Positions 5,416 through 20,474 of a stretch of DNA of 23,467 nt are shown piece after piece. The DNA is from a virus, in the IMG/VR virus record IMGVR_UViG_3300046804_002805, positions 1-23,467 of that record. One strand, 5' to 3'. The notes under the pieces are model-generated. The model saw nothing but the letters and a program-made list of their open reading frames with translations, searched no databases and was not told the origin of the DNA. The translations under genes were made by a program, and so were the position numbers. Positions within the stretch are counted from its first letter, which is position 1. Each line of letters starts with the position of its first letter.

Positions 5416-5875
5416 ATTAAGTATACAAAATGAAATGCGTCAGTTCGATTCCAAGAACAGAGATTTCTGGGACGAACTCACAGATGAGGAGCGGAAAAAG
5501 TTTAGCCCTTTTCTAATGATACGCTGGGGTGCTGGAGTAGAAGGCGGCGCAGATATGCAGGAATGGTATATACGTGCTGTCAATGAAAGACTTAATCATA
5601 ACTTCTTTGAGTTAAGTAAACATCCTAAATTACAATGGCTACTAGCAACCACAGTTAGCCCGGGACTGGGCTCACAACGGCACTACTGGCAGTCCACAAA
5701 AAAACGTGAAGGCACCACCAACAGTAAACTAGTAAAATTCTTGGCTAATCTTCGTCCTGATTTAAAACAAGATGATGTTGAATTGTTGGCGTCGCTCAAT
5801 GACATTAAAACTGTAAAAGAATGGGCTAGAAATGCAGGCTACTCAGAACAGGACATTAAACGCGAACTTGGCTGA
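5405..5875 (+). CDS. 62: Probable clamp-loader small subunit, gp62-like
   Basis: This 156-aa protein starts at ATG 5405, 11 nt inside the upstream gene. It contains FWDELTDEERKKFSPFLMIRW near the start, then a helical middle, then HPKLQWLLATTVSPG, QRHYW and a Lys-rich stretch (KKREGTTNSKLVKFLANL). From memory, this block order (Y/F-W/Y-D-x-L-x-x-x-E-K-K-x-F-x-P-[FY]-x-L-M-R, then LLW, then a Lys-rich tail) matches the short gp62 proteins annotated in T4-like cyanophages. They are shorter than the 187-aa T4 gp62. With gp44, gp62 loads the gp45 clamp; neither partner is in this window. The assignment is by pattern only and could be wrong. A conserved hypothetical is the fallback. Confidence 0.5.
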   Translation: MTDKLSIQNEMRQFDSKNRDFWDELTDEERKKFSPFLMIRWGAGVEGGADMQEWYIRAVNERLNHNFFELSKHPKLQWLLATTVSPGLGSQRHYWQSTKKREGTTNSKLVKFLANLRPDLKQDDVELLASLNDIKTVKEWARNAGYSEQDIKRELG

Positions 5876-6566
5876 TTTTAAATGTAAGTATTGTGATAAA
5901 GTATTTCGCCGCGAAAGCTCTTTAGCGGCACATCTGTGTGAGAAAAAACGTCGCTGGCAGCAACAAAATGAACAGGGAGTACAAATTGGATATAATGCCT
6001 ACTTACAATTTTATGAAACGACTCAGGGATCAGCTCGTCTTAAAACCTATCAGGACTTTGTGGACAGTCCTTTCTATCTGGCTTTTGTACGTTACGGCAG
6101 ATATCTGGTTGGCGTTCGTGCTGTTAATGCTAATAGCTTTACAACTTGGTTATTAAAAAATAATAAAAAACTAGATCATTGGTGTAAAGATAGTTTTTAT
6201 GAAGAATGGTTGCGGGAATATTTAAGAAAAGAAAACCCCAGAGATGCTCTGGAGCGAGCTATCAAGGAGATGCAGGATTATGCAGAAAAACTTAGACTGG
6301 ATGGAACGGACTCTCTTGGCGATTATAGTAATTATTTCCGTCACGCTAACACTAATCGTGTCTGCTACCATATTACTACCGGTCGTATTAGCCCTTGGGT
6401 TCTTTACAATTGTGATAGTGGTCTGGGCTTTCTTGACACTCTTAGCCCAGAGCAAGTACTTTTGGTTATGCCTTATATTGACCCTGATTACTGGAATCGT
6501 CGTTTCAAGGAATACCTGGCTGACACTGAGTGGGCTAGGTTAATATTGACTCAAGCTGGCCTATGA
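5832..6566 (+). CDS. C2H2 zinc-finger protein, T4-like phage family, function unknown
   Basis: This is a 244-aa protein with an N-terminal finger. Residues 16-38 read FKCKYCDKVFRRESSLAAHLC, where the two Cys of CKYC, the His of AAHLC and the following Cys form a C2HC/C2H2-type site. About 200 residues without a known motif follow (NRVCYHITTG, SPWVLYN, DPDYWNRRFKEY). The finger suggests nucleic-acid or protein binding. ATG 5832 lies 44 nt inside the gp62-like gene. TTG 5868 is an alternative start that would still keep the finger. From memory, this finger-plus-body architecture is conserved in T4-like cyanophages beside replication genes, and no role is known. An accidental hydrophobic reading frame overlaps the second half in another frame. 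Confidence 0.75.
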   Translation: MQATQNRTLNANLADFKCKYCDKVFRRESSLAAHLCEKKRRWQQQNEQGVQIGYNAYLQFYETTQGSARLKTYQDFVDSPFYLAFVRYGRYLVGVRAVNANSFTTWLLKNNKKLDHWCKDSFYEEWLREYLRKENPRDALERAIKEMQDYAEKLRLDGTDSLGDYSNYFRHANTNRVCYHITTGRISPWVLYNCDSGLGFLDTLSPEQVLLVMPYIDPDYWNRRFKEYLADTEWARLILTQAGL

Positions 6567-8052: not shown

Positions 8053-8067
8053 CTAAATATATAAATA
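8053..8067 (+). promoter_or_regulatory. Late promoter (tandem CTAAATA and TATAAATA boxes)
   Basis: CTAAATA (8053-8059) is followed at once by a perfect T4 late box TATAAATA (8060-8067). T4 late promoters are recognised by gp55/gp33 sigma-like factors and start about 6 nt after the box. The ATG is at 8072, so the predicted 5' leader is 0 to about 6 nt. No Shine-Dalgarno sequence is present. Confidence 0.75.
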
Positions 8068-8071
8068 CAAG

Positions 8072-8512
8072 ATGCAACAAATAACCAGTTACATCTATAA
8101 TAATAGAATCACGGTGGTCTACGACACCGATCTTTCTACAACTGTAAGGAACAGACAAGTGTACACTAGAACAGTGGATATATACCCCGAGGTGGATAAT
8201 CCCATACAGATACGTTTTTTGAATCAGGATCAGAAACCCACAGTTTTATCCAACGTCACTGTTCGTCTAGATGTAATTGATGATTATGTGGGCGCAAACA
8301 GTAATGTAGTTCTAAGTCGCACTGCCACTGCTATAAACGCAGCAGCGGGGTTATGGACATTAACTATAACTAGTGCCAATGTAGCAGGGCTAGACAGAAG
8401 TACCTACAATTATATGATTAAAATTGATAACGGTTCAGCTAATACCGCAGCCTACACTGATGATAATTTTGGCGCCCACGGACAGATAAGAGTCCATAAC
8501 AATACAAAATAA
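8072..8512 (+). CDS. Virion-associated beta-sandwich protein (fibre/baseplate-like)
   Basis: This 146-aa protein is the first gene after the late promoter. It is beta-rich, with a block PIQIRFLNQDQKPTVLSNVTVRLDVID (about 48-74), then AAGLWTLTIT and YNYMIKIDNG. This layout resembles the N-terminal domain of phage baseplate upper/receptor-binding proteins (BppU-like: I-x-F-x-x-Q-D-G-x-P-x-x-L-x-G-x-x-V). The late promoter, absence of catalytic motifs and the fibre gene two positions downstream support a structural role in tail, neck or fibre. Only 2 nt separate its stop from the next gene. Structural role likely; exact part unknown. Confidence 0.65.
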   Translation: MQQITSYIYNNRITVVYDTDLSTTVRNRQVYTRTVDIYPEVDNPIQIRFLNQDQKPTVLSNVTVRLDVIDDYVGANSNVVLSRTATAINAAAGLWTLTITSANVAGLDRSTYNYMIKIDNGSANTAAYTDDNFGAHGQIRVHNNTK

Positions 8513-10419: not shown

Positions 10420-11487
10420 ATGTATTCTGCCATTCAGGACTATGTCCTACAACATCTTCCTTTTAGAAAAAAAACCAGCCAGAGTGGCTGGATAAGCTTT
10501 GATGCTCCTTGCTGTGTGTATCGTGGAGAAAGTGCAGATACACGCAGTCGCGGTGGTATAAAAACCACTCCGGAAGGTGGCGTCAGTTATCATTGTTTTA
10601 ACTGTTCTTACACAGCCAGCTACCAGCCTGGCAGATCTCTTAGTTATAAATTTAGAAGATTACTTAAATGGTTGGGCACAGATGATCTAGAAATACAACG
10701 TCTTGCAATAGAAGCAACTAGATATCGTAGCTTAATTGATCCCAGCGCACTCGCAGTGCAAGAAGAAAATACTGCCATAACTTTTGAGTCAAGAGAACTT
10801 CCCGAGCAGTCCAGGGACATTGTAGAACTAGCCACACATTATACTCTCGCAGACTATAAACATATACCCGAAGAGTACCACAGTGTGGTAAAGTATATAA
10901 TGGATGACCGCAAGATAGATACAAGTAAATATAACTTCCGGTGGACTCCTGAAGTAGCTTATAATCTACATAAACGTGTGATTATTCCTTTTTACTATCA
11001 GGGAAATATAGTGGGCTACACAGCTCGCGCTGTAATAGATGATGTAAAGCCCAAGTATAGAAGTAGCCATCCAGCAGATTTTGTTTTTAACCTGGATAGA
11101 CAGACAGCGGATAAAAAATTTGTCATAGTCTGTGAAGGACCTTTTGATGCTATGAGTATAGATGGTGTGGCAATATTGACCAATGAAGTAAGTAAACAGC
11201 AGGCTGAACTTATAGAAAATCTAGAAAGAGAAATCATCGTAGTTCCTGATTTTGATGTCAAGCCTCATCCCAAGTCCGGCAAAAAAATCTGGGCTGGACA
11301 ACGATTAGTGGACCAAGCCCTTGAACTAGGTTGGTCAGTAAGTTTCCCAGTCTGGCGGGAAACCTGCAAGGATATAAATGAAGCGGTTGTAAAATATGGT
11401 CAGCTATTTGTACTCAAGTCCATACTGGATGCTTGTGAAACAAGTAGAATTAAAATAGAATTACTAAAACGTGGAGTAGTGCATTAA
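10420..11487 (+). CDS. 61: DNA primase, T4 gp61-like
   Basis: This 355-aa protein is similar in length to T4 gp61 (342 aa). An N-terminal zinc-binding region holds CC (31-32) and HCFNC (58-62), framing a GGVSYHC strand. A TOPRIM fold follows with motif EGPFDAMSIDG (239-249) and the acidic PDFDV (276-280). A KPxxxSGKKIWxGQ stretch follows. In T4, gp61 makes pentaribonucleotide primers on the lagging strand and sits on the gp41 helicase hexamer. Its gene is fused head-to-tail with the helicase gene here by a TAATG overlap, consistent with stoichiometric co-expression. One Cys of the usual four-Cys zinc site is not obvious by eye, because CC is followed by a charged spacer. High confidence for primase. 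Confidence 0.9.
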   Translation: MYSAIQDYVLQHLPFRKKTSQSGWISFDAPCCVYRGESADTRSRGGIKTTPEGGVSYHCFNCSYTASYQPGRSLSYKFRRLLKWLGTDDLEIQRLAIEATRYRSLIDPSALAVQEENTAITFESRELPEQSRDIVELATHYTLADYKHIPEEYHSVVKYIMDDRKIDTSKYNFRWTPEVAYNLHKRVIIPFYYQGNIVGYTARAVIDDVKPKYRSSHPADFVFNLDRQTADKKFVIVCEGPFDAMSIDGVAILTNEVSKQQAELIENLEREIIVVPDFDVKPHPKSGKKIWAGQRLVDQALELGWSVSFPVWRETCKDINEAVVKYGQLFVLKSILDACETSRIKIELLKRGVVH

Positions 11488-12902
11488 TGGCAAAAGATTA
11501 TAATACAGAAACACAGAAGTTATTTTTAGAAATAATGATCACTGATCCTGAAATGTATGTCAGGATTCAGAATATCTACAATAATGAAAACTTTGATCGA
11601 GCTCTTAAGGATGCGGCTAAATTTATCAGCCAGCATAGTAACGATTATAAAAGTTTACCTAGTAGAGAACAAGTACAGGCAGTGACCGGCGTTGAGCTAA
11701 GAGTCATTGACAATCTTGATGATGGTACTAGAGAATGGTTCCTAAAGGAGTTTGAAGGCTTTAGTCGTCGACGTGAACTGGAACGTGCTATCTTGAAATC
11801 TGCAGATATGATAGAAAAGGGCGAGTATGATCCCGTGGAAAACATTATCAAAAATGCAGTGCAGATTGGACTTACCCGAGATATGGGCACAGACTACTTT
11901 GCCAATCCCAGTGAACGTATTAATAGATACTTTAACAGTGGCGGACAGGTCAGCACAGGATGGCCACAACTAGATAAAGTACTCTATGGTGGATTTAGTC
12001 GAGGAGAGCTTAACATATTTGCCGGTGGGTCAGGATCAGGTAAATCACTGGTTATGATGAACATAGCTCTAAGCTGGCTACAGATGGGACTGAGTGGTGT
12101 CTATATCAGTCTAGAACTTAGTGAAGAGCTTTGTGGCTTGAGAACAGATGCTATGTTAACTGGTACAAGTACCAAGGACATACGTCGAGACGTAGAAAAC
12201 ACAGAACTTAAAATTAGGCTGGTGAGTAAAAAGTCTGGTAAGTATCGCATCAAGGCACTGCCCGCACAAAGCAACATCAACGATATAAGAAGTTTCCTCA
12301 AGGAATATCAGATACAGACTGGCAACGCAGTGGACTTTGTGATGATCGACTATTTAGATTTGTTGATGCCAGTAAGTGCTAAGGTCAGTCCCAATGACTT
12401 GTTTATTAAAGACAAGTATGTATCTGAAGAATTGCGCAACCTAGCCAAGGAACTTAATGTACTAATGGTCACAGCAAGTCAGCTAAACCGTAGTGCTGTG
12501 GAAGAAGTAGAATTTGACCACAGTCATATTTCGGGTGGTATCAGTAAAATTAACACAGCAGATAATGTATTTGGTATTTTTACTAGTCGTCAGATGCGCG
12601 AGCGAGGCCGTTACCAGATACAGTGTATGAAGAGTCGTAGTAGTACAGGGGTGGGTATGAAGATAGATCTTGATTATAATATTGAAACAATGCGTATCAC
12701 TGATCCCGGGGAAGACGCTGGACCAGGTACATTGAAACCACAGGTTGGCAGTATTATGGATCAGATCAAGGCCAAGACCAACGTGGAATCTCGAGATAGT
12801 TCCAGTGCAGACGACGATAGTGGTAGCAAGGATCTTGGAGAAGCACAGAGTACCAAGCTTAAACAAATGCTGGCCAGTCTTAAAACTTCCAAAACCCTAT
12901 AA
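11487..12902 (+). CDS. 41: Replicative DNA helicase, T4 gp41-like (DnaB family)
   Basis: This 471-aa protein matches the gp41 length (475 aa). The helical N-terminal domain (1-130) leads into a RecA-like core: STGWPQLDKVLYGGFSRGEL (156-174), Walker A GGSGSGKS (180-187), YISLELSEE (207-214), Walker B FVMIDYLDLL (284-293), and the ASQLNRS sensor and SGGISK blocks towards the C-terminus. It unwinds DNA 5'-3' on the lagging strand and activates the primase encoded immediately upstream (one-base overlap). The C-terminal tail (about 440-471) is acidic and then basic, usual for protein contacts. Two nt after its stop a CATAAATA late box begins the next unit. Confidence 0.95.
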   Translation: MAKDYNTETQKLFLEIMITDPEMYVRIQNIYNNENFDRALKDAAKFISQHSNDYKSLPSREQVQAVTGVELRVIDNLDDGTREWFLKEFEGFSRRRELERAILKSADMIEKGEYDPVENIIKNAVQIGLTRDMGTDYFANPSERINRYFNSGGQVSTGWPQLDKVLYGGFSRGELNIFAGGSGSGKSLVMMNIALSWLQMGLSGVYISLELSEELCGLRTDAMLTGTSTKDIRRDVENTELKIRLVSKKSGKYRIKALPAQSNINDIRSFLKEYQIQTGNAVDFVMIDYLDLLMPVSAKVSPNDLFIKDKYVSEELRNLAKELNVLMVTASQLNRSAVEEVEFDHSHISGGISKINTADNVFGIFTSRQMRERGRYQIQCMKSRSSTGVGMKIDLDYNIETMRITDPGEDAGPGTLKPQVGSIMDQIKAKTNVESRDSSSADDDSGSKDLGEAQSTKLKQMLASLKTSKTL

Positions 12903-12932: not shown

Positions 12933-13223
12933 TTGCAAAAACGCACACGTAGTATACTAGAGGAACTAGATAGCATTCGTCGAGAGCGAGATAGGGAAAG
13001 TCTAGTAGAAAGCCGCGCCAATCACGTAATACAGGGCGCAATTAATCTTATAGGTTTTATAAGAGAGAACTACGATGCTGAACAAGCGGATGAGTTAGAG
13101 CGTAGACTTTTAAACAGTATTAGATCCCAGGATCTAAGTAAGTTCAGCCGTGGTGTTAAACGAATACAAAATGAAAATAAAAGAAATAATCCTAGAGAAG
13201 ACCACAGCAACACCACTGGGTAG
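12933..13223 (+). CDS. Conserved small helical phage protein (TTG start)
   Basis: This is a 96-aa, strongly charged helical protein. The start is TTG 12933 with a CCGGAG ribosome binding site 6 nt upstream; no ATG is near. Blocks: RSILEELDSIRRERDRESLVESRANHVIQ, INLIGFIRENYDAEQADELERRLLNSIRS. From memory, the same VESRAN and NYDAExAxELERRLLNSIRS blocks occur in a small T4-like cyanophage family of unknown function. It follows a late box directly and precedes likely head proteins, so a virion or morphogenesis role is plausible. Its last 53 nt overlap the next gene. Not recognised further. Confidence 0.75.
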   Translation: MQKRTRSILEELDSIRRERDRESLVESRANHVIQGAINLIGFIRENYDAEQADELERRLLNSIRSQDLSKFSRGVKRIQNENKRNNPREDHSNTTG

Positions 13224-13890
13224 TTTAAAAAATCAACCCGGATTCGCTCAGGGTTTTATATCTGGTCTAGTGCCTGGCGCAGATCAGGCCTTTCAGACCT
13301 CCCGTAGGAACAGAATAGCTACAGCGTCGCCCTACACTGACGCTCCCACCACCACCTCTGCTAATGCTAGTAGTAGTACAAGCAACATAAGTCCTGAATA
13401 TCAAAAAGCACAACAGCAGGCGCAGCAGTTGGCACAACGTGCAGCAGCCTATAAGCCAGCTAAACTAGGTCAGGTAAATCCTCGCCAGGATCAAGATAAT
13501 ACCTATGATGTTAGTTTTGCTGATGGTACAAGAGGTATTGTACGAGTGGGTTACAAAGACGAGCAGGGACGAGATGTTCCAAGTAGAATAAGCACAATAG
13601 ATCCTAACACTAAAAAACCCTATAGTTATAGTTACGATAATACAACTAGAGAGTGGCGCTATGTGGGTGGTGGACCACTTACTGATCCTGAAGAAATTAA
13701 TAATTTAAACTCTATAATTCAAACTGTTGGTCAGCAGGCACAACAGATAAACACTCAGGCAGCAGCACAACAAAAACGTGCTGCTAACCTTCAAAGAGCT
13801 AGACAAAATAGAAAACAAAAAATAGCTGGTAAACAAGGCACATCTACCACAGCAGCACCAGCAACTGCTCCAGAACAAGGAACACCATAA
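13171..13890 (+). CDS. Gln/Ala-rich probable internal head protein with capsid-targeting-like N-terminus
   Basis: This is 239 aa if ATG 13171 is used. A longer reading from ATG 13150 adds seven residues, but the shorter one places MKIKEIILE at the N-terminus. That matches the pattern of the T4 capsid-targeting sequence (MKTYQEFIAE), which the prohead protease gp21 cleaves after an I-x-E type site. A low-complexity Ser/Thr/Ala stretch follows (about 50-75), then QQAQQLAQRAAA, a central beta domain (TYDVSFADGTRGIVRVGYKD, 110-130) and a Q/A/R-rich coiled tail (about 190-225). No catalytic motif. Late promoter upstream. Packaging in the head is an inference from the N-terminus and context. Confidence 0.65.
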   Translation: MKIKEIILEKTTATPLGSLKNQPGFAQGFISGLVPGADQAFQTSRRNRIATASPYTDAPTTTSANASSSTSNISPEYQKAQQQAQQLAQRAAAYKPAKLGQVNPRQDQDNTYDVSFADGTRGIVRVGYKDEQGRDVPSRISTIDPNTKKPYSYSYDNTTREWRYVGGGPLTDPEEINNLNSIIQTVGQQAQQINTQAAAQQKRAANLQRARQNRKQKIAGKQGTSTTAAPATAPEQGTP

Positions 13891-13892
13891 CA

Positions 13893-15260
13893 ATGCGACT
13901 TTTTGAAATTAAAAATACACAACCTACTTGGAGACGCCTCAACGAGTCTGACGAGAAAGCAACACACTTAGAACATCTTGAAGATGAAATTTTTAACAAG
14001 GGTTATGTGGGTGCTCTAGAAGCTTTCAACTACATAGAAGGTCTAAAACAGATGTTGACCAAGGAAGGCACAGGAGAAAATACTCGTGTTACTGTTAAGT
14101 GGGACGGTAGTCCAGCCATACACTGTGGTATAGATCCAGAAGACAATACATTTTTTATAGGTACAAAAAGTGTTTTTAGTAAGGCTGCTAAACTTTGTAA
14201 AAGCAACAAAGATATAGATAACTGGTATGGGGATGTTCCTGAACTTGCAGCTACACTCAAAGCTTGTTTGCAGTATCTTCCCAAGCTAGGTATCAAGGAT
14301 GTTATTAAAGGCGATCTATTGTTTGTGCGTGGTACTAATAGAGATCTAGTAGAACAAGAAATTAATGGAAGACGTTATCTAACCTTTACACCTAACACTA
14401 TTACCTATGCAGTGGATATGGAAAATCAGGCCGCCCTGGCAAAACAGATGCAGGCAGCTAAACTGGGTATTGTGTTCCATACAGTCTACCAGTGGACTCC
14501 ACCTACTCCAGAAGATCAACAGGAAAGACAGGAGCAAGGGAAAGAACCCCTAAGTGATACTCCCAATCTACCTGATATGAAGGCGCATTTTAGATTTAAT
14601 CCAAGCAGCCTAGAACACATACGTGATGTCTGGTGGGACGATGCCTATTACGAAGATATGACAGGTATTGCCACACTAACACCGCAGGAAGCTCGCCGTG
14701 TGGAATCACAGCTTAATCGTGTTGCTGTAATTTTTAGCAAGGTTGACCCTGCAGTATTTGATAGATTCCTTGGTGCAGGAAATAATAAAACCAGCGATTT
14801 TGTTACCTATATTAAACCTTTTATCAACACCAAGGTACAGCAGGGCGAAACACAGGTGGGAAGTGCTATAGAGTTCTTAAAGGAATTCCAGGACTATGTA
14901 GAACAAAAAATGCAAGCAGAAATAGCCAAACTTAAAGGCGGGCCTGAAAGTCAAGCAGCACAGGATAGACTGGAACGTGTGGAAGCTATCAAAAAGTTTA
15001 TAGCAGATAATAGTAACACATTATTAAGCATACTAGCACTGTATAAAAAAGCAGTGGAGTTGAAGTTGTTTTTTGTAAAGAAACTACAGATGATAGAAAG
15101 CACTGTGGGGACATTTATCAAAACGGAAAGCGGCTATAAAGTAACCAAGCCCGAGGGATTTGTGGCTGTAGGCGGCGATGGCCAGGTAGTTAAACTTATT
15201 GATCGTCTGGAATTTAGCAGAGAGAATTTCCAGAAAAGTCGCAATAGAAATCCTGCCTAA
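13893..15260 (+). CDS. Putative KxDG nucleotidyltransferase (DNA/RNA ligase-like) of T4-like phages
   Basis: This 455-aa protein shows several elements of covalent nucleotidyltransferases in order. VTVKWDGSPAI (66-76) has the motif I K-x-D-G with candidate nucleotidyl-lysine K69. FFIGTKSVF (87-95) sits like motif III. VIKGDLLF (137-144) resembles motif IV. PEGFVAV (420-426) followed at 432-435 by VVKL resembles motif V, E-G-x-V-x-K. The insert between motifs IV and V (about 150-410) is long and largely helical, unlike compact ligases. From memory, a conserved cyanophage family of unknown function (possibly the one catalogued as DUF6267) has the same KWDGSPA block. The N-terminus MRLFEI fits the capsid-targeting pattern of its neighbours, so the enzyme may be packaged. 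Activity is unproven. Confidence 0.7.
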   Translation: MRLFEIKNTQPTWRRLNESDEKATHLEHLEDEIFNKGYVGALEAFNYIEGLKQMLTKEGTGENTRVTVKWDGSPAIHCGIDPEDNTFFIGTKSVFSKAAKLCKSNKDIDNWYGDVPELAATLKACLQYLPKLGIKDVIKGDLLFVRGTNRDLVEQEINGRRYLTFTPNTITYAVDMENQAALAKQMQAAKLGIVFHTVYQWTPPTPEDQQERQEQGKEPLSDTPNLPDMKAHFRFNPSSLEHIRDVWWDDAYYEDMTGIATLTPQEARRVESQLNRVAVIFSKVDPAVFDRFLGAGNNKTSDFVTYIKPFINTKVQQGETQVGSAIEFLKEFQDYVEQKMQAEIAKLKGGPESQAAQDRLERVEAIKKFIADNSNTLLSILALYKKAVELKLFFVKKLQMIESTVGTFIKTESGYKVTKPEGFVAVGGDGQVVKLIDRLEFSRENFQKSRNRNPA

Positions 15261-15284: not shown

Positions 15285-15292
15285 TATAAATA
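15285..15292 (+). promoter_or_regulatory. Late promoter TATAAATA
   Basis: A perfect T4 late box lies 41 nt before ATG 15334. The expected start near 15298 would put a GC-rich hairpin at the very 5' end of the message. Confidence 0.75.
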
Positions 15293-16325: not shown

Positions 16326-16782
16326 AATAAAAAACTGGACCAAGCAAGAGTATAGACGTATAAGATCACGGTCCCGTGTACCACTTTGCATAGAAATAAA
16401 CAAAAATACCTGGACTATAGGCAATTTTGTAATAAGACATCAAGGCACTCATATCTACCGTGTGGATACAACAGGGGTTAAAGTGCATATTTTTTACAGT
16501 AGGGCCGCTGCAATTTTCTACTGTGCTCTGACTACACTAAATCAGTTTAGACTAGCTGATAAGATACTTTATGCAGATCAGGAAACTGCTAGACGCTACG
16601 AAGATACAGAATTTTATAGAGAAAAGCTAAACAATAGAACAACAAATCTAGATGATTTTAAAAAGCTGCTTTATACTACTAGATATCACGAATCCAAGCT
16701 TTCACTAGCTAATGCTAAACGAGAACTGGAAGAAAGTTTGGAAAGTGCTAAATACATTAAAATCTGGGAAGACCTATTATGA
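16258..16782 (+). CDS. Conserved phage protein, function unknown
   Basis: This is a 174-aa basic protein. ATG 16258 lies 68 nt inside the upstream gene; no better start is visible downstream. N-terminal half: LDKIKNWTKQEYRRIRSRSR, then a beta pair (CIEINKNTWTIGNFVIRHQG, YRVDTTGVKVHIFYSRAAAIFYC). C-terminal half: helices (ETARRYEDTEFYREKL, HESKLSLANAKRELEESLESAKYI). This could be a small alpha/beta core with a helical arm. It ends in an ATGA overlap with the next gene. No catalytic residues are recognised. From its place between suspected head proteins it is probably morphogenetic. Confidence 0.65.
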   Translation: MTTTKSFTNNQLGQIIIDLALDKIKNWTKQEYRRIRSRSRVPLCIEINKNTWTIGNFVIRHQGTHIYRVDTTGVKVHIFYSRAAAIFYCALTTLNQFRLADKILYADQETARRYEDTEFYREKLNNRTTNLDDFKKLLYTTRYHESKLSLANAKRELEESLESAKYIKIWEDLL

Positions 16783-17450
16783 ACTTAAAAGAACTAACAC
16801 CACAAAAAACCAAGAAATTAAACCGCGTGATGGAAAGCCGTTTCGGGTTTAAAATTGACTACGATAAACTAGACTACGCCAAGGCCCAGCGTCTCAAGCT
16901 AGCCCTGGACGAGGGCCTAGACCGCATACGTCGCAGTGCTGCTATACACAGCGCCGAACGTGATCCTCAGTATATGGAAATGCTTATGGTTCGTGAAGGA
17001 CTTACAGAGTGGATCAAACAACAGGATGTGCTACTAGAAGGTGAACTAGAAAGTGCAGAAGCAGTATTAGCAGCCAAGGATATGGTTGATAGTATTCAGG
17101 ATATGATCACAGATGCTAGCAAGATGTTAAATGAGCAATTACCTCCCTTACTAGATACTATTAAGGATCAAATCGGTACAGCTCAGGCTGACGGCTTTAA
17201 GAACAAGGCACAGGAAGCATTAAACAATTTACTTACAGTTTTAAACTCTACAAGAGAGTCATTAGACAGTGGCGCTAGACAATTAGCTGGTGAGGAAGCT
17301 CCTATGAATGAACCACTGGGACCAAGTCCTGAGTCCAGCCCGGAGCCTGAAGTAAGTGACCTAGATCAAGAAGAAGAACCACAAGATGATTTCGCAGCCA
17401 GCGCAGCAGCAGTGGGCGGTAACGAGCCTCTAGGTCGTGAGCGTAGATAA
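16779..17450 (+). CDS. Helical protein with acidic tail, scaffold/prohead-core-like
   Basis: This 223-aa protein begins MNLKEL, the N-terminal pattern of its neighbours. Residues 1-160 are almost purely helical (KLDYAKAQRLKLALDEGL, ELESAEAVLAAKDMVDSIQDMITDASKML). The tail (about 170-223) is Pro/Glu/Asp-rich and disordered (SPESSPEPEVSDLDQEEEPQDD) and ends GRERR. High helix content, acidity and disorder are typical of prohead core or scaffold proteins, though T4 gp22 is not recognisable here. It is coupled on both sides (ATGA upstream, TAATG downstream). Tentative role: head assembly or internal protein. Confidence 0.65.
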   Translation: MNLKELTPQKTKKLNRVMESRFGFKIDYDKLDYAKAQRLKLALDEGLDRIRRSAAIHSAERDPQYMEMLMVREGLTEWIKQQDVLLEGELESAEAVLAAKDMVDSIQDMITDASKMLNEQLPPLLDTIKDQIGTAQADGFKNKAQEALNNLLTVLNSTRESLDSGARQLAGEEAPMNEPLGPSPESSPEPEVSDLDQEEEPQDDFAASAAAVGGNEPLGRERR

Positions 17451-17938
17451 TGCGTCTTAAAGAGTTTGTCAGCGAGCAGGCGCCCTTGGCGCCTCCTGCA
17501 CCCCCTCTTGATATGCAACCAATGGGTTTGGAACAGCCGGGTCAGGCCTCTCCAACGAGTCCAATGAGCAAAGCAGAACTCAAACATAAACAACTTCACA
17601 AACAAGAGCTCGCTAAAAAAGATATGCCTGCTGTGGCAGCTCTAGCACAGATTCAGCAAAGAATTATAAAAAATAAAATGGAACCCAGAATGGACATTGA
17701 TGCCGTTCTGGATCAACTGGGCAATGCCCTACGCACTGATAGTTTTACTGCTGATGCGTTAAGGGATCTAAATGACAGAAATCCCGCTGTAAAAAATGTA
17801 GTCAAAAATATTGAACCAGACACGGTTACATTCAAAACCAATGATACTGACAATCTATCTAGTGCTAATATGCCAGATAATTCTCAGCAAACTGTCAGTG
17901 CAATGGCCAACAAAGCAGTAAAACGTAGACAAAAATAA
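17450..17938 (+). CDS. Probable internal head protein with capsid-targeting-like N-terminus
   Basis: This is a 162-aa protein. Its N-terminus MRLKEFVSEQ matches the T4 capsid-targeting sequence MKTYQEFIAE(A) best of all neighbours: basic residue 2, E-F, hydrophobic, small residue, E. Gp21-like cleavage after VSE would remove 9 residues. A Pro/Ala-rich linker (10-40) leads to a Lys-rich helix (ELKHKQLHKQELAKKD), a helical pair (AALAQIQQRIIKNKM, DIDAVLDQLGNALR), and a polar C-terminus ending KRRQK. Small, basic and low-complexity proteins with such a tag are typical internal proteins injected with DNA. It is the last gene before the isc operon. Inferred role. Confidence 0.6.
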   Translation: MRLKEFVSEQAPLAPPAPPLDMQPMGLEQPGQASPTSPMSKAELKHKQLHKQELAKKDMPAVAALAQIQQRIIKNKMEPRMDIDAVLDQLGNALRTDSFTADALRDLNDRNPAVKNVVKNIEPDTVTFKTNDTDNLSSANMPDNSQQTVSAMANKAVKRRQK

Positions 17939-18037: not shown

Positions 18038-18424
18038 ATGGCATATTCGGATCAGGTAGTAGATCATTACGAAAATCCAAGAAATGTAGGTAAATTAGAT
18101 AAAAATGACCCAGCAGTGGGAACTGGTCTAGTAGGCGCACCTGCCTGTGGAGATGTTTTACAATTGCAAATTAAGGTAGAAGATGACATTATTACAGATG
18201 CCAAATTTAAGACTTATGGTTGCGGTTCAGCGATCGCATCTTCGTCGCTTGTCACTACGTGGCTTAAAGGAAAGAGTATTAACGAGGCGGCAGCGATTAA
18301 GAATACCGATATTGCGGAAGAACTCGCGTTACCTCCAGTCAAAATCCACTGTTCCATATTGGCGGAAGATGCAATTAAAGCGGCCCTAGCAGACTATAAA
18401 AGTAAACATTTAGCAGATCAATGA
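18038..18424 (+). CDS. iscU: Fe-S cluster assembly scaffold protein IscU
   Basis: This 128-aa protein is full-length and close to bacterial IscU. All ligand residues are present: C37 in GAPACGD (with D39), C62 in YGCGSAIASSS, and H104-C105 in KIHCSILAEDAI. The HscA-binding motif LPPVK (98-102) is intact. IscU builds [2Fe-2S]/[4Fe-4S] clusters from sulfur supplied by IscS and passes them on with HscA/HscB help. None of these partners is in the window, so it should work with host IscS and chaperones. It has a strong AGGAG site. Its stop overlaps the radical SAM start (ATGA). The second half uses GCG/TCG codons far more than its neighbours, hinting at recent acquisition from a host. Proteobacterial origin is likely. 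Confidence 0.96.
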   Translation: MAYSDQVVDHYENPRNVGKLDKNDPAVGTGLVGAPACGDVLQLQIKVEDDIITDAKFKTYGCGSAIASSSLVTTWLKGKSINEAAAIKNTDIAEELALPPVKIHCSILAEDAIKAALADYKSKHLADQ

Positions 18425-20148
18425 TAAAAGTTTTATTTTATCATAAAGTAGCAGTATTTGCAGCTTCTTTTGATTTTGATTATTTCAGAGACGGTATACA
18501 GACTGTTTATCCATCTCTAGCCAGTGTATATCTTAAAACGCACTTGGAACTTAACAATCCAGATTTAGCTAATAAGGTAGAATGGTTATTGCCTATACAG
18601 TTTGAAAAAAACAATCAAGAACTAATAGACATAATAAACAAAGAAAAACCTGATCTATTTTGCACAGGCCATTATATTTGGAATCACGATAGTATTATGG
18701 AACAATTAGAGGCTATTAAGCCTCATATTCCTTCACAAACTAAAATAGTTGTGGGGGGACCGCATATAGATGTTGCACAAAATCCAGATTTTTTTACAAA
18801 ATATCCTTTTGTTGACTATGCTATCTATGCTTCCGGCGAAAATGCTTTTGCTGACTTAGTTAATAGTATTGTAAACGATAAAAAATTAATAGCATTTAAT
18901 GTTTCTAATCTTGCGTGGTTTGATAAGGAAAAAAATAAACAGATAGTCGCAGAATGGAAATATGTTCCACAGAATAAAACAAGTCCCTATTTGTATAATC
19001 GAGATTATTTTTCTAGAATAATAAAAGATATTTTCCAACAGGGTTACGAAGTAAGTATGCCCTACGAACTCACACGAGGCTGCCCCTACGCTTGTACTTT
19101 TTGTGACTGGAACTCAGGGTTTACTAACAAAACTACTAGACGCAAAGGCAGCTATCAGGATGAAATAGATTTATTCCAGGAACTAGGAATCAAAAATATA
19201 TTATTATCAGATGCCAACGTGGGACAATACGAGGAAGATATAGATCTAGTAAAATATATTCTTGAAAAAAATACCAAGGAAAATGCAGGTTTCAAAGTAG
19301 ACGGCAATTTTGCTAAACTTAAAAAAGACAATGTGTTAAAGATGTTTCATATTATTGCTAGAATTAACACAAACAATTTTACTGAATCTACTGGACTTGG
19401 TTTTATGTTAGCAGTTCAGGATATCAATAAAGAGGTGCTTAAAAACATCGATAGACCTGATGTAGGCTGGGACGATCATTTAAAGATGGCCTACGAACTG
19501 CGAGAGTCATATCCCCAAATACAAACCAAGGTACAAGTAATTCAAGGCCTACCGGGACAAACTAAAGAAAGCTGGAGAGCTACACTTGCAGAAATAGCTA
19601 GACATAATATTGTACTTCAGCCCTTTTTACATTCTTTGTTACCTAGCAGTCCAGCTTATATGAATCCGGAATATGCTGCTAAATGGAAACCTACCTATAG
19701 CGATAGTATAAGATACAGTGCAGACCATAAGTACTTCCGTGGCACATTTATGTCCTCTTGTGTATCTTTTTCTGAATCAGATATGGTAGAAATGTCGGTT
19801 ATTACACAATTTTATGTTACACTTACTACCTTCAAGTTTTTATATCAATATTTAAATTTTGATTTTGAAAAAATTGTTACAGCTTTTACTAAAACCAAAT
19901 ATTATCACGGGTTAAGAGAAAACCTATATACTAATTGGAAAGAAAAAGACAGTTATTACTACACTGTAGATTTAGATTTAAATAATAAAATATATTCGGC
20001 TTGTGAATATGGTTATGCTGCCAGTCACTGGGCGTTTGCAGATAGCATTACTAAACTAGTTTTGGAAAATGTTGACAAAACACAAAGAACAAACTTTTTT
20101 AAAAACGGTAGAAAAAGTAGAATTATTAAAATTCCGGAGTATGCATAA
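18421..20148 (+). CDS. B12-binding-domain-type radical SAM protein
   Basis: This is a 575-aa protein. The N-terminal part (about 1-150) looks like a Rossmann B12-binding fold of the class B type: PDLFCTGHYIWN, KIVVGGPHIDV, then YPFVDYAIYASGENAF. It lacks the DxHxxG lower-ligand motif. The radical SAM core starts with C221-x3-C225-x2-C228 in RGCPYACTFCDW, the [4Fe-4S]/SAM site, followed by the NILLSDANVG and VIQGLPGQTKESW strands typical of the barrel. A C-terminal region of about 150 aa is unassigned. Close in layout to methyltransferase or oxidoreductase subfamilies (YgiQ/MiaB-like relatives); substrate unknown. It is translationally locked between iscU (ATGA) and iscA (TAATG), so it is the obvious client for their clusters. 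Codons are AT-rich, unlike the 3' half of iscU. Confidence 0.88.
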   Translation: MIKVLFYHKVAVFAASFDFDYFRDGIQTVYPSLASVYLKTHLELNNPDLANKVEWLLPIQFEKNNQELIDIINKEKPDLFCTGHYIWNHDSIMEQLEAIKPHIPSQTKIVVGGPHIDVAQNPDFFTKYPFVDYAIYASGENAFADLVNSIVNDKKLIAFNVSNLAWFDKEKNKQIVAEWKYVPQNKTSPYLYNRDYFSRIIKDIFQQGYEVSMPYELTRGCPYACTFCDWNSGFTNKTTRRKGSYQDEIDLFQELGIKNILLSDANVGQYEEDIDLVKYILEKNTKENAGFKVDGNFAKLKKDNVLKMFHIIARINTNNFTESTGLGFMLAVQDINKEVLKNIDRPDVGWDDHLKMAYELRESYPQIQTKVQVIQGLPGQTKESWRATLAEIARHNIVLQPFLHSLLPSSPAYMNPEYAAKWKPTYSDSIRYSADHKYFRGTFMSSCVSFSESDMVEMSVITQFYVTLTTFKFLYQYLNFDFEKIVTAFTKTKYYHGLRENLYTNWKEKDSYYYTVDLDLNNKIYSACEYGYAASHWAFADSITKLVLENVDKTQRTNFFKNGRKSRIIKIPEYA

Positions 20149-20474
20149 TGGTTACACTTACAGATACAGCAGCAAAAAAAGTAAAACAGCAAATAGAAAA
20201 ACGTGGTCGCGGTCAGGGAATTATGATTGGTGTAAGGACCACGGGCTGTTCCGGACTAGCCTATAAACTTGAATATGTTGATAATGTTCCTGATTCAAAT
20301 GAATGGACAACCTACGATTCTAATGGTGTAAAAGTCTGGATTAGCGGCAAAGATTTGCCTTACATCAATGGACTTACAATGGATTACCGACGCCAAGGCC
20401 TTAATGAAGGTTTTGAGTTTGTTAATCCCAACGAACGTGATCGCTGCGGTTGCGGAGAAAGTTTCAGAGTTTAA
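20148..20474 (+). CDS. iscA: A-type Fe-S carrier protein IscA
   Basis: This 108-aa protein is family length. The three invariant cysteines are C34 (TTGCSGL), C100 and C102 (CGCGESF). The HesB/IscA/SufA fold is plain from LTDTAAKKVKQQI through GVRTTGCSGLAYKLEY to the C-terminal CGCGxSF. A-type carriers take clusters from IscU-type scaffolds and insert [4Fe-4S] clusters into targets such as radical SAM enzymes. The start ATG shares a base with the TAA of the radical SAM gene, and GGAG (20136-20139) is 8 nt upstream. Similar HesB/IscA genes are known from T4-like cyanophages. SufA or ErpA subtype cannot be excluded; IscA is preferred because iscU is beside it. Confidence 0.92.
   Translation: MVTLTDTAAKKVKQQIEKRGRGQGIMIGVRTTGCSGLAYKLEYVDNVPDSNEWTTYDSNGVKVWISGKDLPYINGLTMDYRRQGLNEGFEFVNPNERDRCGCGESFRV

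Follow-up and report, generated by a model that had tools for sequence, protein, structure and literature searches.

Which kind of enzyme is encoded by the open reading frame beginning with MRLFEI in this stretch of viral DNA (23,467 nucleotides, in the following called the window), and is it carried in the phage head? The sequence-only reading had suggested a ligase-like nucleotidyltransferase that travels in the capsid and is injected with the genome. We followed up both parts of this suggestion computationally, by family and motif conservation, fold comparison, the N-terminal sequences of homologues and genomic neighbourhood.

The family and its distribution

The frame is a bona fide open reading frame for 455 residues, and residues 24-449 of its product match the Pfam family DUF6267 (PF19782) with 316 bits, the gathering cut-off being 27 bits (Table 1). 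The protein is placed by PHROGs in phrog_455, and function is not assigned in either resource. Neither NCBIfam nor PADLOC provided a name, and DUF6267 was not found as a name in any paper in a literature search.

By tblastn the family occurs in 461 phage records, T4-like nearly throughout, with hosts including Synechococcus, Prochlorococcus, Pelagibacter, Methylophilales and Stenotrophomonas. In IMG/VR it was found in at least 585 stretches. A further 28 contigs with the gene come from assemblies of bacteria or archaea, mainly metagenome bins, and are probably phage sequence. As a minor observation, the frame is broken into S-PM2p138 and S-PM2p139 in one record of phage S-PM2 (AJ630128; L022:7983-9762), and the match is unbroken in the other (LN828717).

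Table 1. Features of the DUF6267 gene and of its surroundings. Positions are those of the window unless a locus prefix is given; a slash marks the predicted cleavage site; G002 is a contig from the same phage that is longer than the window.
Feature	Position	Strand	Basis
DUF6267 protein, 455 aa, predicted ligase-like covalent nucleotidyltransferase	13893..15260	+	PF19782 E 5.5e-94; AlphaFold2 pLDDT 87.5, pTM 0.84
Putative capsid-targeting propeptide, residues 1-18, MRLFEIKNTQPTWRRLNE/S	13893..13946	+	[LI]xE here in 89/100 unique homologue N-termini; pLDDT below 50; weak without own clade in training
Family signature HLEHLED, residues 25-31	13965..13985	+	H25, H28, E30, D31 85/85
Motif I KWDGSPA, residues 69-75; K69 predicted nucleotidylated lysine	14097..14117	+	K69, D71, G72, P74 85/85
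Motif Ia FFIGTKSVF, residues 87-95	14151..14177	+	K92 85/85; placed by order and strand position
Motif III KGDLLF, residues 139-144	14307..14324	+	G140, D141 85/85
Motif IIIa-like GIVFHTVY, residues 192-199	14466..14489	+	G192, H196, T197, Y199 85/85
Helical insert, residues 264-404, interval IIIa-IV	14682..15104	+	Model secondary structure; far shorter in S-RIM2-type form
Motif IV PEGFVAV, residues 420-426	15150..15170	+	E421, G422, V424 85/85; on T4 Rnl1 E227
Motif V KLIDR, residues 434-438	15192..15206	+	K434, R438 85/85; K434 on T4 Rnl1 K240
Upstream gene, CTS-like N-terminus MKIKEIILE/K	13171..13890	+	4th of 110 genes in G002, independent matrix
Downstream gene, CTS-like N-terminus MRLKEFVSE/Q	17450..17938	+	3rd of 110 genes in G002, independent matrix
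Probable virion structural protein	16779..17450	+	phrog_14154, head and packaging, E 1.5e-11
gp41-like replicative helicase, two genes upstream of DUF6267	11487..12902	+	DnaB_C E 1.1e-20; phrog_19 E 2.9e-70
Divergent PD-(D/E)xK-looking genes just upstream of DUF6267, other phages	L024:6929-7987, L025:7058-7975, L026:4654-5802, L061:4246-4983		By eye

Catalytic motifs

Conservation was read from an alignment of 85 diverse DUF6267 members and from a second alignment of 57 sequences led by the 298-residue form of phage S-RIM2. In the first alignment H25, H28, E30, D31, K69, D71, G72, P74, F88, K92, G140, D141, N168, G192, H196, T197, Y199, E421, G422, V424, K434 and R438 are invariant in 85 of 85 sequences. 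In the second the motif lysines and the aspartate, histidine, glutamate and arginine positions are invariant again, and the equivalent of K69 is kept in 57 of 57 sequences. The conservation of K69, which the sequence-only reading had named as a check on its proposal, is thereby confirmed in both alignments. KWDGSPA, FFIGTKSVF, KGDLLF, PEGFVAV and VVKL are all present in the frame as claimed, and the proposed motif series stands in its substance and order. Its labels shift to I, Ia, III and IV-V: FFIGTKSVF is motif Ia and not III, KGDLLF is motif III, and PEGFVAV...VVKL comprises motifs IV and V.

The closest link to a known enzyme arises from T4 RNA ligase 1 (Rnl1, PF09511). An hhalign comparison with its relatives gave a sole aligned segment, EGFVAVGGDGQVVKL with EGYVAVMKDGSHFKI, which pairs E421 with Rnl1 E227 and K434 with Rnl1 K240 at a spacing of 13 residues in both proteins, and none of 150 column shuffles reached this score. 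Against relatives of T4 Rnl2 hhalign found no alignment. DUF6267 has its motifs in the order found in Rnl1 and the RNA/DNA ligase superfamily (I, Ia, III, IIIa, IV, V), and EGYVAV..DG...K of Rnl1 is matched at identical spacing. The family differs from known ligases in that motif III has D where E is usual, a proline follows KxDG[AS], and motif V has a single lysine: its KxK is absent from the 85 homologues, the second position being V, I or N, and R438 is invariant there instead. Further differences are a helical region of about 140 residues inserted after motif IIIa and before motif IV, the invariant N-terminal motif HLEHxED, the N-terminal targeting signal described below, and the lack of any significant match to a ligase family at the sequence level.

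Fold and ligase families

The AlphaFold2 model of the window protein is confident, and its motif I lysine terminates the strand formed by residues 65-69. A PDB search with this full-length model was dominated by carbonic-anhydrase noise, and its weak matches included Naegleria RNA ligase and T4 Rnl2; in a viral library an Agrobacterium phage RNA ligase followed behind the members of DUF6267 itself at a probability of 0.97. Since the helical insert confused the full-length search, the natural short form of the S-RIM2 type was folded instead (pLDDT 91.1, pTM 0.85). Every one of the best 12 PDB matches of this short form is a DNA or RNA ligase (Thermococcus, TbREL1, LIG3, LIG1, Naegleria), and each is weak when taken singly (E 0.07-0.58; best match E 0.074, probability 0.47), with low TM-scores of 0.17-0.24 for the leading ones. 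T4 Rnl2, capping enzymes and the NAD+ ligase domain appear lower down the list, and no match in the PDB fold search reached E <= 0.001. The fold evidence for a ligase class comes from the uniformity of matches of which each one is weak.

On the level of sequence profiles known ligases were not reached from DUF6267, and phmmer together with two profile searches of the PDB gave nothing credible. The comparison with ligase families that the sequence-only reading had recommended, carried out with 85 members against PF01068, PF09414, PF09511 and PF01653, gave no match above the cut-off: the Pfam scan returned a single weak PF09511 match (E 0.017), and PF01068, PF09414 and PF01653 were not among the 25 families listed. 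The models contain no OB-like beta-rich domain after motif V, where just a helix follows, and no nucleic-acid-binding domain is evident in them. The invariant motifs and the fold matches nevertheless support the ligase-type class proposed from the sequence, and judged from conservation and models DUF6267 is very probably a ligase-type enzyme.

A capsid-targeting signal in the family

In phage T4, internal proteins with a capsid-targeting signal (CTS) are packaged, clipped and ejected; residues 1-10 of IPIII suffice for targeting and packaging, and the prohead protease gp21 cleaves after L/I-X-E (PMC9026906). N-termini of this kind are found in DUF6267, for instance MKFTEFLTE/A, MNFTQFLTE/S and MHSFKQYLNE/E, directly before the conserved HLEHLED. 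While one must keep in mind that the counts overstate independence because the homologues share ancestry, [LI]xE occurs in 89 of 100 unique N-termini, compared to about 8% expected from composition, and the residue after E is A, S or G in 72% of them.

A matrix of 10 positions was made from these N-termini and applied to T4 proteins and to the DUF6267 protein of phage DLP6, all of which lie outside the training set. Among 122 T4 proteins it ranks IPIII first and IPII second and places six gp21 substrates within the top nine (hypergeometric p 4e-6). The DLP6 protein scores first of 216 genes. A short N-terminal propeptide with a gp21-type [LI]xE end is common to DUF6267 and to T4 IPI, IPII, IPIII and Alt; the mature part distinguishes them, being a ligase-like enzyme in DUF6267 compared to the small internal proteins and the ADP-ribosyltransferase Alt of T4.

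The signal is present in most members outside the cyanophages and absent from the cyanophage members. As most relatives outside the cyanophages are tagged, the enzyme may be injected with the viral DNA. Homologues of gp21 (S77 prohead protease) and gp23 were found in DLP6, in HTVC008M and on G004, the contig of L061. They were not found on the near-relative contigs G001, G002, G003 and G005, and the portal gp20 was likewise not found on G002, G003 and G005, so that the head module may lie off these contigs. On the basis of the N-terminal sequences we consider it quite likely that DUF6267 is packaged in much of the family.

The signal of the window protein

The putative propeptide of the window protein ends in LNE/S, which has the [L/I]-x-E form and precedes the mature domain. 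It is the sole segment of the model with pLDDT <50, and this segment stops exactly at LNE/S. The N-terminus of the window clade (MKLFEIK...LLTE/S) is a divergent and longer form. A matrix trained without this clade did not recognise the window protein (1.7 bits, 32nd of 110 genes in G002), and relatives ranked 10th of 222 and 5th of 185. With a matrix made from the window clade alone, the best T4 match is IPI, whose propeptide is about equally long and which the window tag resembles most.

As the independent matrix misses its N-terminus, the packaging claim for the window protein rests on homology and on its neighbours. The genes at 13171-13890 and 17450-17938 rank 4th and 3rd of 110 by the independent matrix, which bears out the earlier suspicion of a shared N-terminal pattern around the gene. 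Capsid carriage, as originally proposed for this protein, thus gains a T4-type targeting and cleavage signal family-wide and is weaker for the window protein, whose own tag is divergent; that this protein is packaged appears somewhat likely from its sequence context.

Comparison with virion proteomes

The virion proteomes consulted do not list a DUF6267 protein as detected, and for a phage with a CTS-bearing member no virion proteome was found. A comparison could be made with cyanophage S-CREM2. Its published virion list (PMC10665884) includes a SAM hydrolase, an APH/ChoK kinase and a cytidylyltransferase, whose N-termini, taken from the published gene coordinates, are MKDFDSFLEE, MKRFDAFLTEE and MKNFSSFLTEA, respectively. 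A Cas9-like protein on the list would fit the CTS only from an internal start. The DUF6267 protein of S-CREM2 (gp87, 58890-59777) is untagged and is absent from the virion table. The authors of that study caution that virion-listed proteins of this kind could be carry-over.

Across the S-CREM2 genome, a Fisher test for association between the CTS and detection in virions was not significant at most thresholds (p 0.05-0.30 by matrix at three thresholds, 0.07-0.12 by pattern), and it is weak because most virion proteins are structural and without CTS and because mechanical start calls miss some genes. The comparison of the cargo enzymes is therefore descriptive, and the correspondence between tag and virion in this phage is no more than suggestive. 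Virions of S-SM1 were likewise found to contain a member of the cytidylyltransferase family T4-GC190 (PMC3037559).

These results bear on the possibility that, with the enzyme class correctly assigned, the [LI]xE pattern arose for a reason other than packaging and the protein works in the infected cell. The common ancestry of the N-termini, the failure of the independent matrix on the window protein and the genome-wide S-CREM2 test, not significant at most thresholds, would all fit this view. It is harder to reconcile with a matrix that singles out the internal proteins among 122 T4 proteins, with the named S-CREM2 virion enzymes that bear the same N-terminus, and with a tag that, in the model of the window protein, ends exactly where the ordered domain is predicted to start. 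We give it a minor chance.

A cytoplasmic role in cyanophages

An unpackaged replication or repair DNA ligase that substitutes for T4 gp30 in the cytoplasm is unlikely as an account of DUF6267. In Syn1, S-RIM2, HTVC008M, S-CREM2, S-PM2 and S-CAM7 the DUF6267 gene is present and no ligase of PF01068, PF09414 or PF01653 was found. In cyanophages the gene is surrounded by gp43, uvsX, gp41 and, at a greater distance, gp61; in HTVC008M it comes after the first three of these. The cyanophage forms are without CTS. Because no DNA or RNA ligase is recognisable in these six marine phage genomes and several of them have the gene inside or close to the replication cluster, DUF6267 may be a cytoplasmic ligase in cyanophages. 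In DLP6, G003 and G005, however, a canonical DNA ligase coexists with DUF6267, and this speaks for a distinct role of the tagged protein. The CTS on most members outside the cyanophages and the helix in place of an OB-like domain after motif V also speak against such a ligase. Both roles could be true, in different lineages.

Partner genes

A CTP_transf-like protein is encoded up to 5 kb downstream of DUF6267 in 19 of 50 loci with a short CTS, in 6 of 7 loci without CTS and in 0 of 15 loci of the window clade; on G005, a contig of this clade, it is encoded elsewhere and not beside DUF6267. The partner has weak similarity to NMNAT. Its cytidylyltransferase-like domain often adjoins DUF6267 or is fused to it, and phrog_455 covers both domains. 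The BFVD match from S-PM2, of 591 residues, carries the annotation cytidyltransferase-like and is probably such a fusion.

Where DUF6267 has no tag the partner is sometimes tagged (MKKFSAFLTE/A in S-RIM2). On G004 a CTP_transf-like protein of 900 residues (67289-69991) starting with MKFRDFLRE/Q lies 7 kb downstream of DUF6267; by eye it also has a P-loop kinase domain. In HTVC008M a Zeta_toxin/AAA_33 kinase with a weaker match to a phage polynucleotide kinase family is found two genes downstream (L024:9724-10386). The cytidylyltransferase-like cyanophage virion proteins of T4-GC190, phrog_3041 and phrog_395 have this neighbourhood in common with DUF6267, are sometimes fused to it and often carry the same CTS; they were detected in virions of S-SM1 and S-CREM2. 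They differ in their CTP_transf-like fold and in their active site with a TxGH motif. In other phages the genes immediately before DUF6267 resemble PD-(D/E)xK nucleases by eye; no family match, Pfam included, supports this reading, and it was rejected.

That DUF6267 is a covalent nucleotidyltransferase which does not join nucleic acids, and for instance modifies a host protein or small molecule with a nucleotide or acts in an NAD-linked reaction with the NMNAT/cytidylyltransferase-like partner, is quite improbable: the recurrent, weakly NMNAT-like neighbour or fusion partner, the incomplete motif V, the lack of an evident nucleic-acid-binding domain and the example of Alt, a packaged T4 enzyme that modifies a host protein (PMC9026906), would agree with it, but the leading fold matches are polynucleotide ligases without exception and the polynucleotide kinase match of the HTVC008M neighbour favours end repair.

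Proposed function

On balance we lean towards DUF6267 being a divergent ligase-type covalent nucleotidyltransferase that many T4-like phages use as an ejected head protein. Beyond the family, motifs, fold class and CTS-like signal, which the computation shows, we infer the following course from packaging, cleavage and ejection to catalysis and substrate. The T4-type CTS at the N-terminus would direct the enzyme into the prohead core, where the prohead protease may cut it after [L/I]-x-E, in the window protein at LNE/S. The mature enzyme, starting just before HLEHLED, would then enter the cell alongside the DNA, and K69 would be nucleotidylated inside the infected cell. Most likely the enzyme would seal broken nucleic-acid ends ahead of any phage gene expression. 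As substrate, RNA cut by host defence nucleases is our first guess; in second place come nicks in the incoming DNA or its ends.

A family present in hundreds of T4-like phages is thus given a function that can be tested and a probable active site. The T4 signal, established for a few proteins of coliphages, is extended to a family of enzymes from many phages. If the enzyme is injected, sealing or repair would be available prior to phage gene expression, which is relevant to host defences that cleave tRNA or DNA as the phage enters. Ejected proteins and ligase-like enzymes are both already known in kind; new would be the combination of the tag of T4 ejected proteins with a ligase-like enzyme. 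The CTS could also be used to predict ejected proteins in uncultured phages. It is a doubtful but conceivable extension that T4-like phages carry a head-packaged nucleic-acid end-repair kit against host nucleases, injected at time zero. Its components would be DUF6267, the cytidylyltransferase/NMNAT-like partner and, in some cases, a zeta-toxin/polynucleotide-kinase-like P-loop kinase, the majority of them bearing a CTS of their own.

Additional observations

A late-type promoter over the DUF6267 gene, as claimed earlier, was not recovered: exact T4-late-type TATAAATA occurs in the window only at 8060-8067 and 15285-15292, just upstream of the open reading frames at 8072 and 15334, and these 2 matches are at chance level (2.9 expected).

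In S-CREM2 (OR473000, 3837-13331, and L338:14609-15469) several virion-detected non-structural proteins, small hypotheticals included, begin with a T4 IPIII-like CTS, of which the parts of PMC10665884 consulted make no mention. Near the terminase gene of G002 (73493-76567) several short genes start with MKTFKSYLTE/S, MKINEIITE/A and MKIREIVRE/S and are, by these N-termini, candidates for further packaged proteins. Within the window, a phage protein of phrog_11058 (5832-6566; function not assigned) has an N-terminal C2H2 zinc-finger match (E 1e-5), and IscU-like, radical-SAM-like and IscA/HesB-like proteins, recognised by eye, follow consecutively at 18038-20474, a possible phage Fe-S cassette.
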